Below are positions 19,941 to 30,258 of a DNA stretch of 32,390 bases, piece by piece. The translations under genes and the position numbers were made by a program. Where the stretch lies: contig JAUIBX010000014.1 in assembly GCA_030427595.1 (NCBI GenBank), positions 1-32,390 of the forward strand. The letters run 5' to 3'. Each line of letters opens with the position of its first letter. The first letter of the stretch is position 1. Origin of the DNA: Bacteriovoracia bacterium (GTDB lineage Bacteria > Bdellovibrionota > Bacteriovoracia > Bacteriovoracales > Bacteriovoracaceae). The notes under the pieces were generated by a model. That model was not told the DNA's origin. It searched no databases and worked only from the letters and a program-made list of their open reading frames with translations.

Positions 19941-19960
19941 GGTGGTCCCATAGGACCACC
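19941..19960 (-). promoter_or_regulatory. 20-bp palindrome in the bactofilin 5' region
   Basis: GGTGGTCCCATAGGACCACC, 22 to 41 bases upstream of the bactofilin GTG, in the parB-bactofilin gap. The inner 16 bp (19943-19958) differ by one base from the palindrome repeated in mnmE. As RNA it gives an 8-bp GC-rich hairpin with a 4-nt loop and no T run, so it is not an intrinsic terminator. It may be an operator, a protein-binding site or an mRNA stability hairpin. Confidence 0.65.
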
Positions 19961-19979: not shown

Positions 19980-20885
19980 CTATCTTTTTAGAAGGAACTC
20001 ATAGATATCGTTAAATTCCGCTTCGTTGGAAAATTTTATCACAAATTCTCCCTTTCCAGCTTTTTTAGATTTTAAATCAAAATGAAAACCAGTTTTTTGT
20101 TCTAGCTTCTGCTTAAATTGATCAAGCCTTGAGTCAAAGTATTTTTCTTGAGGCTTTTTAGCTGAGGGAGACTTCTTCTTTAGATTCTTTTCTAGCTCAC
20201 GGACACTTAGTTGCTCAGTCACTGCTTCATTAGCAAGACGTAAACATCTATCACGATCCTTTTCTCCGGCCAACACTTTTGCATGGCCAAAACTAAGAAG
20301 TTCTTTTTGAAGAAGGTCAATGACATCTCTTGGAAGCTTAAGAATTCTCAAATAATTGGCAATCGTGGATCTTTCCTTACCTAATCTCTTAGAGACTTCT
20401 TCCTGAGTAAGATCGAACTCATTCATTAATTGATAATAAGCAAGGGCTTCCTCAACACAGTTAAGGTCACTTCTTTGAACGTTTTCAATAATAGAGATAA
20501 CCATTCTCTCGCGAGCAGTAACCTTTTTAATGACTGCAGGTACTTTATCTAAACCCGCAAGCTTTGCAGCCCTTAACCTTCTTTCACCTGCAATAAGCTC
20601 AAAGCCCTTATCAGCTTTTAAAACAACTAATGGCTGAATGATGCCATTTTCTTTTATTGAGTCACTGAGCTCTTTAAGCTCTTTCTCTTTAAAGATCTTC
20701 CTAGGTTGATTTGGGTTTGCCTTGATTTCATTAATATCAATTAAAACTGGACCATCATTTATGACTGTTTCGGTTTTTGGTTCTTGTACTTCCTCTTTGG
20801 TGTTTAAAGAGGCTTTTAGAATCTCATTAGGAGTATCCTGAATGAGAGATGCAATACCTTTACCTAATGCTACTTTCTTGGCCAT
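19980..20885 (-). CDS. parB: Chromosome partitioning protein ParB
   Basis: 301 residues. The CTPase/ParB-N domain contains IKANPNQPRK and the arginine patch GERRLRAAKLAGL with the typical spacing. A helix-turn-helix follows (LTQEEVSKRLGKERSTIANYL) that reads parS, and a basic C-terminal dimerisation part. The N-terminal tip (KKVALGKGIASLI) resembles the ParA-stimulating peptide of the family (LGRGLxALL). ParB loads on the parS sites found at 21824 and 24263 and spreads as a CTP-dependent clamp. It lies 18 bp after parA. Confidence 0.97.
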   Translation of the reverse strand: MAKKVALGKGIASLIQDTPNEILKASLNTKEEVQEPKTETVINDGPVLIDINEIKANPNQPRKIFKEKELKELSDSIKENGIIQPLVVLKADKGFELIAGERRLRAAKLAGLDKVPAVIKKVTARERMVISIIENVQRSDLNCVEEALAYYQLMNEFDLTQEEVSKRLGKERSTIANYLRILKLPRDVIDLLQKELLSFGHAKVLAGEKDRDRCLRLANEAVTEQLSVRELEKNLKKKSPSAKKPQEKYFDSRLDQFKQKLEQKTGFHFDLKSKKAGKGEFVIKFSNEAEFNDIYEFLLKR

Positions 20886-21787: not shown

Positions 21788-22414
21788 TTAAATAAGTTCG
21801 GTAACTTTGACAAGCTCTTTCTTTGTTCCACGTGGAACACCATCAGAGTGATAAGCGATAAAATAGCGTCCCTCGGTTCCTGACAGACCATAGGGAGCAT
21901 CTAGAACTTTTCTAAAACTTCCTATCTTTTCTGGGACTGGCTCCAATTCTTTAACATTGGGGCCTTTGTAAAAGTAAATCGTAACAGGTGCAGTATTGTT
22001 GACTTTTTTAATGAACTCTTTAATTTTACCAACGGCCTTGAAGCTCATCGAGCATTCCCTATCAAAAAGAACTCCCTCAACTCTTTGATGAAATGTTTTA
22101 ACATTCTCTAGACACAACTCCGTTGCTATGTCCCTAACAGCATCCGCCTTTTTCCTTCTCGCCTCAAAACCAACGAAAGTGGCGGCCGGAAACTTTTTGG
22201 CCAAAGGAAGAAGTGGGAAGCCACCACCAAAGCCAATATCAAAGTGAAGACCCTTTGATACCGATTCGGCAAAAGATTCAAATACATCCGTTGGCAATAG
22301 CGAATCTATAATTTGCTTTTGGTAAAACTCATCTGGAGAATTAATCCGAGTGAGGTTTAAAGAAGCATAGGGACCATTCAGTAAATCTAGGTACTGGTTA
22401 GAAAATTCTTTCAT
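21788..22414 (-). CDS. rsmG: 16S rRNA (guanine-527-N7) methyltransferase RsmG
   Basis: 208 residues from the ATG at 22414, whose A is also the last base of the mnmG TGA stop (TGATG). A TTG one codon upstream is not needed. The fold is a class I methyltransferase with SAM-binding motif HFDIGFGGGFPLLPLA (family: DVGSGAGxPGxPLA) and an upstream LDLLNGPYASLNLTR segment replacing the usual 'NLT' motif. The C-terminal half is less conserved than usual. The codons GVPRGT near the end are encoded by a perfect parS site, so the C-terminus is constrained by DNA as well. Confidence 0.9.
   Translation of the reverse strand: MKEFSNQYLDLLNGPYASLNLTRINSPDEFYQKQIIDSLLPTDVFESFAESVSKGLHFDIGFGGGFPLLPLAKKFPAATFVGFEARRKKADAVRDIATELCLENVKTFHQRVEGVLFDRECSMSFKAVGKIKEFIKKVNNTAPVTIYFYKGPNVKELEPVPEKIGSFRKVLDAPYGLSGTEGRYFIAYHSDGVPRGTKKELVKVTELI
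21824..21839. other. parS site (perfect)
   Basis: TGTTCCACGTGGAACA, a perfect 16-bp palindrome inside the 3' end of rsmG. It matches the conserved bacterial parS consensus (TGTTNCACGTGNAACA). It lies about 75 bp upstream of the parA start and is the probable main ParB loading site near oriC. Confidence 0.95.
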
Positions 22415-24279
22415 CAAAGCCCCGAAGCAACAAAGGTAAGTGTCGCTGGTCTTATACCCTCAATTCTTCTTAGTTGCCCAAAGGTAGAAGGCTTTATCTT
22501 ACTTATCCTTTGCTTGCATTCAAAACTAAGGTTGCTATTTTCCAGGAGAGATTCCCAGTTAATTTTCTTTGCCTCTAGCTTATTGAGAGATTCATTATCT
22601 TGAGCCTCCCTTGCAATATAGCCACTGTATTTAATACTAATAGCGACTGTCTTTAGTACATTGGCAGGGAAGTAAATCCCCTTGCATATTAGAACTTCCT
22701 TCAAGGCTTTAACAGGATCAACAATACTTCTCTGAAGAACTTCTGATAGTGAAGTCTTTTCCTTAAGGCTTCCTAGGTCAAGCTGTCCAAAAAGAGAAAT
22801 ATTCTCTTTAGTGGGTAAAAATTGAGTCTTATGGCAAATTTCCTCTAGATCCTTAGATAGTTGAAGGAATTGATCATTATAGTGGTCAATGGGTTTATTT
22901 AAACCAAGCTGCTTGCGGTAGCTGGCCATTCTCTCAATAGAATTATCTTCTCTTATAAAAAGCCTATTTTCGGACCTGGCAGTAAATAATCTATAAGGCT
23001 CATCTCTTTCATTTGTAACCAGATCCTCGATCATTACGCCTATATAACTCACTCTTCTATCCAGAATGAGGGGATTTCTTTGTAAAACCGCTAAGGCCGC
23101 ATTAACTCCTGCAATATAACCCTGTCCACCCGCTTCTTCATAGCCAGAGGTGCCGCAAACTTGACCAGCAAAATAGAGCCCCGTCACCTCTCTGTGCTCC
23201 ATCGTCTGATAAAGTCTTAGCGTATTAACGACATCATATTCGACAGCATAACCGTAAACAGCTATCTCTGCCTGTTCTAGACCAGGAATTTTTTGAAGAA
23301 ACTCGAGCTGAACATCTTTAGGTAAAGATGTTGAGATACCATTGGGGTAAAAAGTATCGATATCTAGCCCCTCAGGCTCTACAAATACATGATGAGTATT
23401 TCTATCTAGGTAGCGAAAAGCCTTGTCTTCAATGCTTGGACAATATCTAGGGCCGATTCCTTTAATTTGACCATTAAATATTGGGCTTTTTTCTCTATTT
23501 TCTCTAATTATAGACAGAGCATCTTCATTTGTTCGCGTTAGATAGCATGACACCTGTTTGCTTTTTCGAGCCTGATCAGAATTTTCCCAATGAAAGTTTT
23601 CCGCCCTATCGTCACTTGGCTGCTCTTCCATTTTTGAAAAATCTATTGAATGTCTTAAGATCCTAGGTGGAGTCCCCGTTTTAAACCTAGCCTTTAATGT
23701 CTCTATTCCCGAGAAAAGGTTTTCTAAAGATTCCGATGGGCTTTGACCAACACGGCCCCCATCAACTACCTCGGGACCAGTGTGAAGCTTACCACCCAAG
23801 AAGGTTCCAGTGGTCACAACCAGCTTTTTGGTGCGATAAACAGACCTTTCCCCAACAAGATTAAAAAGGTCATTTGAATCTTTAAAAACCCTATCTACCT
23901 TGTCACGAATGACTTCAATTGATGATTTTTCTATTTCTTCTTCGGCGACTTTTGAATAAAGCTCTTTATCAATCTGGACTCGGGTGGATTGAACTGCGTA
24001 GCCCTTACTTTCGTTTAGAATTCTATATTGGATACCGGACCTATCTGCCAGCTTTCCCATCAAGCCACCAAGAGCATCGAGCTCTCTAACAACCTGGCCC
24101 TTCCCAACACCACCAACGGCAGGATTACAGGGAGCAGAACCAAGCCCCACCCCGGGAAGAGAAACAATACCTACTTTTAAATCAAACTGGTGAGAGATCC
24201 ATGCAGCCTCAAGCCCTGCATGGCCACCGCCCATAACTAAAATATCAAAGATTTTTTCAGATTGTTCCACGTAGAACAT
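22414..24279 (-). CDS. mnmG: tRNA uridine-5-carboxymethylaminomethyl modification enzyme MnmG (GidA)
   Basis: FAD protein that with MnmE makes cmnm5U34 in tRNAs. 621 residues, normal length. N-terminal FAD motif VMGGGHAGLEAAW, then AIGGxGKGQ-like NPAVGGVGKGQVVRE, ALGGLMGKLADRSGIQ, the RCPSIE-like YCPSIEDK, EVEYDVV-like VEYDVVNTL, AGQVCGTSGYEEAGGQG and the C-terminal helical MnmE-binding region with YSGYI. The ATG overlaps a parS-like site (24263-24278), which fixes the first six codons. It is separated by 53 bp from mnmE and overlaps rsmG by one base. Confidence 0.97.
   Translation of the reverse strand: MFYVEQSEKIFDILVMGGGHAGLEAAWISHQFDLKVGIVSLPGVGLGSAPCNPAVGGVGKGQVVRELDALGGLMGKLADRSGIQYRILNESKGYAVQSTRVQIDKELYSKVAEEEIEKSSIEVIRDKVDRVFKDSNDLFNLVGERSVYRTKKLVVTTGTFLGGKLHTGPEVVDGGRVGQSPSESLENLFSGIETLKARFKTGTPPRILRHSIDFSKMEEQPSDDRAENFHWENSDQARKSKQVSCYLTRTNEDALSIIRENREKSPIFNGQIKGIGPRYCPSIEDKAFRYLDRNTHHVFVEPEGLDIDTFYPNGISTSLPKDVQLEFLQKIPGLEQAEIAVYGYAVEYDVVNTLRLYQTMEHREVTGLYFAGQVCGTSGYEEAGGQGYIAGVNAALAVLQRNPLILDRRVSYIGVMIEDLVTNERDEPYRLFTARSENRLFIREDNSIERMASYRKQLGLNKPIDHYNDQFLQLSKDLEEICHKTQFLPTKENISLFGQLDLGSLKEKTSLSEVLQRSIVDPVKALKEVLICKGIYFPANVLKTVAISIKYSGYIAREAQDNESLNKLEAKKINWESLLENSNLSFECKQRISKIKPSTFGQLRRIEGIRPATLTFVASGL
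24263..24278. other. parS site (one mismatch) over the mnmG start
   Basis: TGTTCCACGTAGAACA, one base short of a perfect palindrome. It begins at the second base of the mnmG initiation codon and encodes FYVEQ. It is the second parS in the window, 2.4 kb from the first. Confidence 0.85.
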
Positions 24280-24332: not shown

Positions 24333-25850
24333 CTACTTTCCTATACAGAAATTACTAAATATATGATCAAGGACTTCCTGGGGACTCACTATACCCACCA
24401 GCGAGTCTAACCGAGCCCCTAACCGATTTACGAGTGAGCTCAAAATAGCTGAATCTCTTATTTTTTTATAAGTGTTTGAAAACTCATTAAAAGCATCGTA
24501 AATAGCTGAAATTTCAATACGATGCCTTTCAATCGCTATAGGATTTCCGCTGAGAATAGCCTCGTAACAACCTGAAATCACATCTTCAAGAATTGGCTCT
24601 TTAGGGGCACCACTCTCTTTTGGTCCTATAGGACCAATATTCCCCTTTGCCCCCATAGGACCACTTAACTTATCTGGTCCTATAGAACCACCATCATCTT
24701 TTGCCCCTCTAGGGCCATTCATCTCACTTGGTCCTATAGGACCACCGAAATAAACTGCCCCCATAGGACCACTTTTAAAGAATGTCTTATTGGGCATAGA
24801 GAGCATTTTTTCTTTAACTTTAGATTCAAAGTCTTCAACATCACTATGGGTGAAGAGAATTCCATCGCATTCTTTAAGAGTTGCTTCGTAGTAATCAAAA
24901 TCAAAAGAGTGAAAGGGATTACAAACAAAGAGCTTATAAAATGCTTTCTTAAAAACATCTAAACTGCGCTCTATCCCCTCTTTTTCAATCTTCTCACCTG
25001 TTTCACGCAAGCCTGCTGTATCTATCAGTTTAAAAGAGCTGCCATTGATGGAAATGTACTCAGAAATATAATCTCTAGTGGTACCGTGAACATCGCTAAC
25101 GATTGCCCTATTCTCGCCAACTAGACGATTAAATAATGTGCTCTTTCCTGCATTGGTTGGACCCACAAGAACAATCGATGGTGAAAGAATTTTTGTTAAG
25201 TCTCCCGAGGTTCTCTTGTGCAGCCCCTCGATCAAATCCTCAAACTCTTTCGTATCCTTTTCGAGCTTGGCCCAAGCTTCCTCCTCCCCAACATCTTCAG
25301 CGAAATCAATGAGAAGCTCAATTGTCGCCTTAATCTCCAGAAATACACCACGTAAGGCACTGTAATCTCGATAAAGATCATTATTAAGCAGTTTAGTTCC
25401 GGCCGAGAGTCCAAAACTAGAATTGGCGTTTAATAGAAGATCGAGACCTTCAACTTGAGTAAGGTTCAACTTTTCATTTTTTAAGGCACGGTATGAGAAC
25501 TCACCAGGCTCAGCTAGCCTAAAATCAAATTTATCGACTAAGTAATCACAAAACCTTTGTAGGATAAGTGGATTTCCATGCAAGTGGAACTCGACAATAT
25601 TTTCACCAGTAAAGCTATGGGGACCTTGGAAGAAAGTGAAAAGACCTTCATCGAGGATTTCTCCACTAGTATTGTAGAAGCGAGAGAAGTACGCTTGGCG
25701 GGCTTCTATTACCCTCTTTGCATTTCCTGTGAGCTCTTTGAGGAAGTCCAGGTTAACAAAGCCACTTACTCTTACAATTCCCAAGGCGCTCTTTTCTTTG
25801 AGACCAGTGGAAATTGCTACAATGGGCTTGTCATCCCCAAAAACGGCCAT
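24333..25850 (-). CDS. mnmE: tRNA modification GTPase MnmE (TrmE) with Gly-Pro repeat insertion
   Basis: 505 residues. N-terminal folate-binding domain (ALGIVRVSG, FTGENIVEFHLHGN, PGEFSYRALKNEKLNL), helical domain, then the G domain at ~225-355: G1 GPTNAGKST (230-238), G2 GTTRD, G3 DTAGLR. The usual G4 NKxD is replaced by THSD (334-337), and the G5 'SA' position reads FFKSG. Residues 360-419 are an insertion of 9-residue units GP[IMR]G[AP] absent from ordinary MnmE. The helical C-terminus resumes with ILEDVISGCYEAI and ends in the conserved FCIGK, with the Cys needed for catalysis. Family length is ~450-460, so the extra ~50 residues are mostly this insertion. It lies 5 bp after yidC. GTPase specificity may be altered. 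Confidence 0.95.
   Translation of the reverse strand: MAVFGDDKPIVAISTGLKEKSALGIVRVSGFVNLDFLKELTGNAKRVIEARQAYFSRFYNTSGEILDEGLFTFFQGPHSFTGENIVEFHLHGNPLILQRFCDYLVDKFDFRLAEPGEFSYRALKNEKLNLTQVEGLDLLLNANSSFGLSAGTKLLNNDLYRDYSALRGVFLEIKATIELLIDFAEDVGEEEAWAKLEKDTKEFEDLIEGLHKRTSGDLTKILSPSIVLVGPTNAGKSTLFNRLVGENRAIVSDVHGTTRDYISEYISINGSSFKLIDTAGLRETGEKIEKEGIERSLDVFKKAFYKLFVCNPFHSFDFDYYEATLKECDGILFTHSDVEDFESKVKEKMLSMPNKTFFKSGPMGAVYFGGPIGPSEMNGPRGAKDDGGSIGPDKLSGPMGAKGNIGPIGPKESGAPKEPILEDVISGCYEAILSGNPIAIERHRIEISAIYDAFNEFSNTYKKIRDSAILSSLVNRLGARLDSLVGIVSPQEVLDHIFSNFCIGK
24612..24773 (-). repeat. Six-unit 27-bp palindrome array in mnmE
   Basis: Cores begin at exactly 27-bp steps on the plus strand: 24621, 24648, 24675, 24702, 24729, 24756. 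Copies at 24621 and 24729 are the perfect palindrome TGGTCCTATAGGACCA; 24675 has one change (TGGTCCTATAGAACCA). The alternate copies at 24648 and 24756 read TGCCCCCATAGGACCA, and 24702 reads TGCCCCTCTAGGGCCA. So units alternate in a 54-bp higher-order repeat. A decayed seventh core in register is at 24594. The 11-bp flanks between cores are all different. In frame it encodes alternating SGPMGA and GGPIGP units. Confidence 0.95.
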
Positions 25851-28307: not shown

Positions 28308-28387
28308 AATGTCCCGCTCTAAACAGGCATACATTACACACAATTTCTAAGAAGACTTAGCAGGATTCTTAAGTGGAGACGTTAGAA

Positions 28388-30007
28388 ATGACTCAGGACT
28401 TTCCTTTCGAAAAATTCCTTACTAACAATACGCAAAAAACTAATAAAAACGAACAATTACTAGACGATATCTTTTCACAAACAACCTCTGCACAGGCTCC
28501 AAAAGAGAGCTCTTTTAACACTCAAAAAAACTCTTTTGAGGAGAAAAATAGTCTAGCAGAAGGCCCAGAAGATGCTCTAAAGCCGATCACCGATGGATTA
28601 TTTCAAATTCTTGAAAGTGAAATTGACCCCATCAAGTTCAACACTTTCATTAAAAATAAAATCCAACTCGTTAAAATTAATGACCATAAAGCACAGTTTT
28701 TGGCGCAAACCCAATTTATTAAATCAACGGTAGAGAATTCATTTTTAAATAATATTAAAAGCTCTCTCTACCAACTCATGGGTAGCCAATACGACATCGA
28801 TATCATTGCTAAAGCTGAAGGAATTCCATCATTTAGCAATCTTATGGATGAAGCTTCTTCATCAAACTCTACAAATGAAAAATCAAATAAACCTTCCTTT
28901 ACCTTAGATTTGACTCCAGAGCAGGAAGATTTAAAAAGCCAGGCCCACAGCCTTTTCATCGATCATATGGAAAAGGAATCCACCGGCCTTACAATTGATA
29001 CTGGTAAAACTTTTGAAAATTATATTGTGGGTCCATCCAATAACCTTGCTTTTGCTACGGCCTGTGCTGTTGCAGATTCTCCAGGTAAGTCAGGAAAGTA
29101 TCCATGTCTCTATATTTATTCAGATTCTGGACTTGGAAAAACTCACCTACTCCATGCTGTCGCCAATGGTATTTTTGAAAACCATCCAGACCTTGCTGTT
29201 TGTCTCATTTCAGCAAGAGACTTCATGAAGGAACTCATCAATGCCTACAAGGACAAAACCCTAAGTGATTTTCAAAGGAAATATACTGAAAATGTAGATG
29301 TCCTCATGATTGATGACATTCATGAGTTAAAAAATAAAAACTCTACTCAAGAAGAATTTTTTCATATCTTCAATTTCTTGCACGATAAAGGAAAACAACT
29401 TATCTTCACTTCAGATAAGTCTCCTGACAAAATCACTGGAATTGAGGAAAGAATTATCACACGCCTGCAATGGGGATTGGTAATCGATATTCAAAGACCT
29501 GATTTTGAAACAAGAACAGCGATTCTTAAAAAGAAAGCTCTTGAGTTAGACCTCTTTGTTCAAGACGAAGTTCTCAACCTAATCGCCAGCTCAATCAAAA
29601 CATCTATTAGAGAACTTGAAGGTTCTCTTATCAGGCTTCAAGCTCATGCTGACCTCATGGAAGCAGAAATTGATACCGAAATGGCGAGAGACATCTTAAA
29701 GCTTCAAGACATCAACGATAGACCAGCAGCTACCCTTGAAAGCGTATGCCGTGCAAGCTCACAATACTTCAAAGTTTCAGTTGGAGATCTTAAATCAAAG
29801 AGTAGAAACAAAGACATTGTACGGGCTCGTCACATTGCCTGGTATCTTAGTAAAAATATTGTCGGTGCTACTTTTATTGAAATCGCTAAATACTATGGTA
29901 ACCGTGATCATTCCTCAGTAATTCATGGTGTTAATAAAATTACTGATAATGTTAAAACTGATAATACACTCTCAAAGGATCTTCTGTTCTTAGAGCATAA
30001 TATCTGA
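28388..30007 (+). CDS. dnaA: Chromosomal replication initiator DnaA
   Basis: 539 residues from the ATG at 28388, which has GGAG 9 bp upstream; a GTG at 28373 (five codons earlier) with AGGA 7 bp upstream is an equal alternative. About 60 low-complexity polar residues (QKTNKNEQLLDDIF, KNSFEEKNSLAEGP) precede domain I, which starts near ALKPITDGLFQIL. A Ser/Asn linker leads to the AAA+ domain: Walker A SDSGLGKTHLLHAV, Walker B VDVLMIDDIHEL, sensor I FTSDKSP and an arginine finger in ERIITRLQWG. Domain IV ends with IAKYYGNRDHSSVIHGV, the DnaA signature that reads DnaA boxes. The first Gly of Walker A and the next residue are Ser-Asp instead of Gly-Gly. The protein should open oriC just downstream. 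Confidence 0.97.
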   Translation: MTQDFPFEKFLTNNTQKTNKNEQLLDDIFSQTTSAQAPKESSFNTQKNSFEEKNSLAEGPEDALKPITDGLFQILESEIDPIKFNTFIKNKIQLVKINDHKAQFLAQTQFIKSTVENSFLNNIKSSLYQLMGSQYDIDIIAKAEGIPSFSNLMDEASSSNSTNEKSNKPSFTLDLTPEQEDLKSQAHSLFIDHMEKESTGLTIDTGKTFENYIVGPSNNLAFATACAVADSPGKSGKYPCLYIYSDSGLGKTHLLHAVANGIFENHPDLAVCLISARDFMKELINAYKDKTLSDFQRKYTENVDVLMIDDIHELKNKNSTQEEFFHIFNFLHDKGKQLIFTSDKSPDKITGIEERIITRLQWGLVIDIQRPDFETRTAILKKKALELDLFVQDEVLNLIASSIKTSIRELEGSLIRLQAHADLMEAEIDTEMARDILKLQDINDRPAATLESVCRASSQYFKVSVGDLKSKSRNKDIVRARHIAWYLSKNIVGATFIEIAKYYGNRDHSSVIHGVNKITDNVKTDNTLSKDLLFLEHNI

Positions 30008-30103: not shown

Positions 30104-30258
30104 TTATCCACAAAGTTATCCTGTGTGGAAAAATAGTTTTCCCCAATATCCACAATGTGAATAAAAACTTATCCCCATGTGGAAAAAAATGGGGATAAAA
30201 ATCTCAAACAAGGGTAATTTTACCGTTCTCTGTTGTGAAAAAACTAAACTGTAGATAA
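30104..30258. other. oriC: DnaA-box cluster, probable oriC core
   Basis: Box-like nonamers on both strands: TTATCCACA at 30104 (consensus); TTATTCACA on the minus strand at 30156-30164 (consensus TTATNCACA); ATATCCACA at 30146; TTATCCCCA at 30169 and, on the minus strand, at 30190-30198; TTTTCCACA on the minus strand at 30124-30132 and 30178-30186; TTATCTACA on the minus strand at 30250-30258. Together with the dnaA and dnaN flanks this makes the 530-bp gap the likely origin. No gene is visible in 30008-30537. Confidence 0.85.

Follow-up and report, generated by a model that had tools for sequence, protein, structure and literature searches.

A palindromic site array at the Bacteriovoracia chromosome origin and a candidate second ParA-ParB system that may read it

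What keeps a 16-bp palindrome repeating at strict intervals, in frame, inside mnmE close to a chromosome origin, and which protein reads it? The array lies in the window analyzed here, meaning the whole stretch of 32,390 nucleotides, which derives from the class Bacteriovoracia, whose members are mostly predatory. Bacterial chromosomes are usually described with one ParABS system at the origin. The answer that probably holds, in the absence of binding data, is that the palindrome is parS2, an oriC-proximal loading site for a second pair of partition proteins, ParA2-ParB2, at the Bacteriovoracia origin.

The array and its origin-region setting

The window is an origin region that carries dnaN (30538), dnaA, rnpA, yidC, mnmE, mnmG, rsmG, parA, parB, bactofilin, and atp genes. 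The genes with full coordinates and the sites of the palindrome are as follows.

19980-20885, minus strand: parB (ParB1), with canonical parS-reading residues
20904-21749, minus strand: parA (ParA1)
22414-24279, minus strand: mnmG/gidA
24333-25850, minus strand: mnmE (505 aa), with the array in a G-domain loop at the expected position of the G5 motif and the C-terminal FCIGK retained
28373-30007, plus strand: dnaA, the marker by which the array is assigned to the oriC region
19943-19958, no strand: extra copy TGGTCCCATAGGACCA, 1 mismatch, part of the 20-bp GGTGGTCCCATAGGACCACC between parB and the bactofilin gene
24594-24609, no strand: decayed core TGGCTCTTTAGGGGCA, 5 mismatches, from a direct reading of the sequence
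24621-24636, no strand: array core, perfect palindrome TGGTCCTATAGGACCA
24648-24663, no strand: half-type core TGCCCCCATAGGACCA, 3 mismatches, a type also present outside mnmE in relatives
24675-24690, no strand: core TGGTCCTATAGAACCA, 1 mismatch
24702-24717, no strand: degenerate half-type core TGCCCCTCTAGGGCCA, 4 mismatches, encoding GPRGA
24729-24744, no strand: core, perfect palindrome TGGTCCTATAGGACCA
24756-24771, no strand: half-type core TGCCCCCATAGGACCA, 3 mismatches

These positions confirm the arrangement described in an earlier note on this DNA, namely six cores in frame with the minus-strand mnmE at a strict spacing of 27 bp, two of them perfect palindromes, together with the decayed core at 24594. 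The 54-bp higher-order repeat that it reported was recovered by TRF at 24621-24774. The copy at 19943-19958 was absent from that description; the gap in which it sits has sites in many relatives. At up to three mismatches the window holds six matches, the 19943 copy among them, against 0.07 in shuffled windows. Two short 22-bp tandem repeats were also seen, at 22618-22659 in mnmG and at 30147-30189 between dnaA and dnaN.

Near dnaA, the palindrome is restricted to some 15 kb around parAB-mnmG-mnmE-yidC. In the 3.82-Mb assembly no copy with one mismatch or fewer falls outside the window, and the single additional match at two mismatches (contig C101) is what chance would yield, about one per genome. 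The same holds in relatives: all four sites of a single-contig 4.2-Mb genome (G136) fall in a span of 6.3 kb at the parAB-mnmE region, and all six sites of a second genome (G008) fall in a span of 12.6 kb at the origin region, again at parAB-mnmE. The genome-wide count proposed in the earlier note, with its question of clustering near oriC, is answered by clustering at oriC only. A palindromic site of about 16 bp, in few copies clustered near oriC, meets the site component of parS sensu lato. No array DNA was found in plasmids.

Across the class, a search at one mismatch or fewer to TGGTYCTATAGRACCA detected the motif in 120 of 129 Bacteriovoracia genomes, and it is kept in 47 of the 48 genera. 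In a sample of the phylum, the motif occurs in 94/97 genomes of the class and in 8/194 from other Bdellovibrionota classes, the latter with one match each, a rate that resembles a reversed-pattern control and is at chance level. A slightly degenerate form of the site is present at least once in all 36 of the oriC regions extracted from the class and in none of 20 syntenic outgroup oriC regions, although parS is present there. When exact palindromes common to the origin regions of the class were sought without bias, the only notable ones were parS and the C and T forms of this motif. The sites are located in mnmE, mnmG, rsmG, parA, parB, yidC, and intergenic gaps, and genomes without the mnmE array have sites elsewhere.

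One genus (g5) has no site at one mismatch or fewer. The one origin region of this genus that was examined, from member G010, carries only half-type variants, which lie in mnmE, parA, and parB. Half-type sites, in which TGCCCC is paired with TGGTCC, also recur outside mnmE in both orientations. Because of this recurrence, and because G010 has only such variants, the half types look like functional variants of the site.

Canonical parS and a second ParA-ParB pair

The origin region also contains true parS, at two positions.

21824-21839, no strand: canonical-type parS TGTTCCACGTGGAACA
24263-24278, no strand: parS variant with a single change, TGTTCCACGTAGAACA, lying 342 bp from the array

The earlier note was right that the array does not match parS. 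The new palindrome does not meet the consensus of canonical parS (TGTTTCACGTGAAACA class); it shares 10 of 16 positions with the local parS and differs at the other six. In this genome the true parS pair is positioned between two places bearing the new palindrome, and in some relatives new sites lie inside the pair. The new motif has not taken the place of parS, because canonical parS occurs in those same regions. ParB1 retains Q162, G170, K171, R173, N178, and G201 at the parS-contact positions without exception in 34 sequences. At the level of sequence, the new palindrome constitutes a distinct second set of sites beside canonical parS.

Almost every genome of the class encodes a second ParB of about 300 aa, which is about 33% identical to ParB1 over the core. 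A profile search at a strict threshold found ParB2 in 92/97 class genomes and in 0/194 others. Four of the five misses are assemblies that are 81-85% complete, and in the fifth (G032) parA2 is present and is itself truncated by a contig end. Named matches include Bacteriovorax stolpii, Halobacteriovorax marinus, and many Bacteriovoracaceae MAGs. A ParA-type ATPase is encoded directly upstream of ParB2 in 79/79 clustered loci, and in two good genomes (G008 and G136) the parA2B2 operon is about 0.4 Mb from the origin region and its sites. A plasmid or phage source of ParB2 was rejected, as the only relatives are below 60% identity and those listed are at about 27-32%.

ParB2 retains the ParB CTPase motifs GERR and ENxxR. 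With these motifs, an HTH, and a partner ParA in the same genomes, ParB2 fulfills the protein requirement of parS sensu lato, the cognate pairing being inferred. The predicted structure (pLDDT 76.5) matches KorB, ParB, and Noc at Z 14-15; KorB 8qa9 ranks first, level with ParB and Noc. ParB2 has no LG(K/R)G(L) motif for ParA binding, even though its own ParA adjoins it, and there is no match to the Pfam ParB C-terminal domain.

The positions that touch parS were taken from the Caulobacter ParB complex (PMC7383237), and residues were matched through a single MAFFT alignment (34 ParB1 and 34 ParB2 sequences), in which Caulobacter position 201 is less certain than the recognition helix. ParB2 carries E162, I171, K173, R178, and Y201, all invariant (34/34) except I171 (32/34). 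At four of these positions, E162, K173, R178, and Y201 stand in place of the Q, R, N, and G of ParB1. Judged from this alignment, ParB2 has swapped nearly all of the known base-reading residues of ParB-parS for others that are themselves invariant. Because of that exchange ParB2 should read a different, conserved sequence, an expectation for which there are no binding data. A local site was not found: across 80 loci, the 5 kb around parA2B2 contains no shared palindrome and no parS.

Several further observations concern the ParA and ParB families of the class. In 68/80 loci parB2 is followed by a conserved gene with a signal-peptide-like start and no Pfam match (L159:6097-6990 and equivalents). 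One genome encodes a further, different ParB that is 36% identical to ParB1 (G025:C53, L088:4271-5197), and a third ParA-like protein (G136:C1:2905754-2906500) lies apart from both parAB operons. Many class genomes encode a protein of 310-350 aa with a weak ParB_N-like match. In G114, G075, G136, G119, and others, the match to the ParB2 gene contains one TAA, where the profile match probably overruns the gene end.

Candidate readers of the palindrome

The earlier note inferred that a tolerant mnmE loop carries multiple binding sites for some unidentified protein of the origin or of segregation, and this inference is supported by the clustering at oriC, the fixed synonymous codons described below, and the recurrence of sites in other genes and gaps. 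The candidate binder is ParB2 of the second parAB operon, an assignment that is inferred, has no binding data behind it, and is held with reasonably good confidence. The pairing is the simplest reading because two ParAB pairs and two origin palindromes occur in one class. The link between ParB2 and the sites rests on their shared restriction to a single clade and on elimination. As motif and ParB2 are both near-universal in the class, there are few independent events of gain or loss, and their co-occurrence amounts to one clade-level event plus the absences in outgroups. Further points against ParB2 are the 0.4 Mb or so that separates parA2B2 from the sites in two good genomes, its lack of the ParA-binding motif and of a Pfam ParB C-terminal domain, and the presence of half-type variants alone in the g5 region.

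A different class-specific DNA-binding protein is therefore not the preferred binder and is not excluded either. The palindrome could be the operator or loading site of another origin protein with a role in replication, the nucleoid, or membrane anchoring, with ParB2 binding something else, and the fact that clade-wide co-restriction is the only support for ParB2 leaves room for such a protein. This possibility is unlikely, though it retains some weight: a ParB2 without an identified site and an unassigned, parS-like 16-bp palindrome share one class, and no other shared palindrome is present at the origin or beside parA2B2. Less plausible still is recognition by ParB1, for which the palindrome would be a second or low-affinity class of parS. 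The ten shared positions, and the way in which the sites surround parS and adjoin parB1, speak for such a reading; however, ParB1 keeps its canonical contacts, the motif is missing from other classes that have canonical parS, and position 3 and the center of the palindrome are unlike parS.

If ParB2 is the reader, its dimers would load onto the 16-bp sites, close as CTP-dependent clamps, and slide along the origin DNA. Such closing and sliding of CTP clamps is known for ParB, Noc, and KorB. ParA2 would then move or anchor the ParB2 complex, and ParB1-parS would be joined at the origin by a second complex for partition, anchoring, or boundary formation. Having sites in tandem in mnmE would increase loading, and the array may persist there because a loop of the GTPase domain tolerates insertions. 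One option is a second partition or polar anchoring system. Another is a boundary that limits the sliding of ParB1, which is suggested by the new sites flanking the parS pair on both sides here, yet lying inside it in some relatives.

The proposed system resembles chromosomal ParB-parS in its 16-bp, oriC-proximal palindrome with few copies per chromosome, in the ParA-ParB operon of the same genome, in the CTPase motifs and HTH of the candidate binder, and in the 10/16 positions shared with the local parS. It differs in that positions 3, 7, and 8 of each half-site are changed, the palindrome coexists with canonical parS, and the contact residues of ParB2 are not those of ParB. The new sites also often form tandem arrays with a period of 23-36 bp, largely within coding sequence.

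Noc is not known to have a partner ParA gene, whereas ParB2 has one. Noc and its NBS sites in Bacillota (PMC7383237, PMC8429893) are otherwise a close likeness, as Noc is a ParB-family paralogue with altered DNA-reading residues and a parS-derived palindrome, and the best matches of ParB2 include Noc structures and models. In contrast with the new sites, which are clustered only at the origin, NBS are scattered over the chromosome, and the motif changes are at other positions. ParB2 is not a member of the Noc family (TIGR04285), scoring 92 bits against a cutoff of 315. KorB of plasmid RK2 shares the ParB-family CTPase and is the top-ranked, tied structural match (8qa9); it is, however, a plasmid transcriptional repressor without a comparable origin array.

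Two ParAB pairs per cell are also found in dual ParABS systems, reported in 2026 for the Streptomyces plasmid SCP1 (PMC13245405) and also for Vibrio chromosomes I and II (PMC3688505). SCP1 is a plasmid and the Vibrio pairs serve different replicons, whereas in the present case a single chromosomal origin carries the two sets of sites within about 5 kb, and does so in a whole class. A 2025 survey of ParB-fold proteins found orphan ParBs to be widespread (PMC12704722). In Bdellovibrio bacteriovorus, which belongs to a sister class, an unknown factor acting through the DNA next to parS prevents ParB from assembling during attack phase (PMC10547168), and this block may or may not be related to the new palindrome. 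No published second ParAB, and no mention of this palindrome, was found for Bacteriovoracia in the open-access literature searched, an absence that is weak evidence.

A broader proposal, toward which the evidence leans moderately, is that the whole class maintains two complete, differently specified ParABS systems on one origin, the second centromere being partly an in-frame array in a gene of an essential region. The ParB1 complex may be bounded, insulated, or timed by ParB2 clamps, or these clamps may tether the origin to a pole in the predatory cycle. If true, the class would offer, through a further ParA-ParB with origin sites of its own, a natural case of duplicated, re-specified centromeres beside Noc, and ParB2 with the palindrome could be used directly to study how specificity diverges among ParB proteins. 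ParA2-ParB2 and its palindrome would also be a possible means of origin control in predatory bacteria.

Conservation of the palindrome as DNA

Whether DNA, RNA, or peptide is conserved can be judged from codon use in MnmE repeat units that were picked by amino acids only (G[PS][IMVL][GE][PA], n=140). The first glycine is GGT in 139/140 units (background 34%), proline is CCT in 101/105 (background 40%), and isoleucine is ATA in 83/88 (background 23%); the second glycine, where present, is neither GGT nor GGC in any unit. With only the first unit per genome counted, isoleucine is ATA in 28/29 and glycine is GGT in 29/29, with binomial p of about 3e-17 and 3e-14, respectively, in a test that does not remove relatedness. 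Synonymous positions are fixed, since GGT and ATA are near-universal in units chosen by amino acids, and non-synonymous changes are allowed where the palindrome allows them. Freely varying synonymous codons in relatives, which the earlier note named as a refutation, were not found. On sequence grounds alone, it can be held with little doubt that the palindrome is selected and conserved as DNA. A DNA-binding array would then have been imposed on a conserved protein-coding gene, with its synonymous sites frozen.

The earlier note left open whether the DNA or an RNA hairpin is selected, rather than only the protein. The DNA part stands, given the fixed codons and intergenic copies, and the hairpin does not. 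C-to-T changes in mnmE are divided between the left half (Pro to Ser) and the right half (Gly to Glu) as 19 versus 18, and one of these two changes would break a pair in a hairpin, which disfavors it. As pairing-keeping (U-G) and pairing-breaking (C-A) changes are equally frequent, an RNA hairpin element, in which U-G would outnumber C-A on the transcribed strand, is ruled out.

A collagen-like Gly-Pro repeat kept in MnmE for its peptide would account for the in-frame spacing (117/118 mnmE spacings are multiples of 3, mostly 24, 27, and 30 bp) and for a weak match to a collagen-like adhesin model. It is nonetheless hardly tenable and is ruled out by the fixed codons and the intergenic copies: the synonymous sites are fixed while the amino acids vary (GPIGP, GPMGA, GSIGP, GPIEP), the motif also occurs in other genes, and some MnmE proteins lack the array in genomes that have sites elsewhere. 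Spacings in the parB-bactofilin gap are 23, 24, 27, 31, 32, 34, and 45 bp, and intergenic spacings such as 23, 31, 32, and 34 bp are not multiples of 3. The alternative raised in the earlier note, a mobile palindrome that spreads into coding sequence as Rickettsia palindromic elements do, fits the in-frame copies in several genes and the local tandem duplication but has next to no standing, because the copies are not dispersed genome-wide in many unrelated genes, stay in the origin region in genomes with listed positions (bar isolated chance-level matches), and are retained in nearly all genera.

The MnmE G-domain of Bacteriovoracia has a degenerate G4 motif (usually THxD, not NKxD) and no clear G5 at the position of the array, with FCIGK kept. 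Given these features, the nucleotide specificity of MnmE may be altered.
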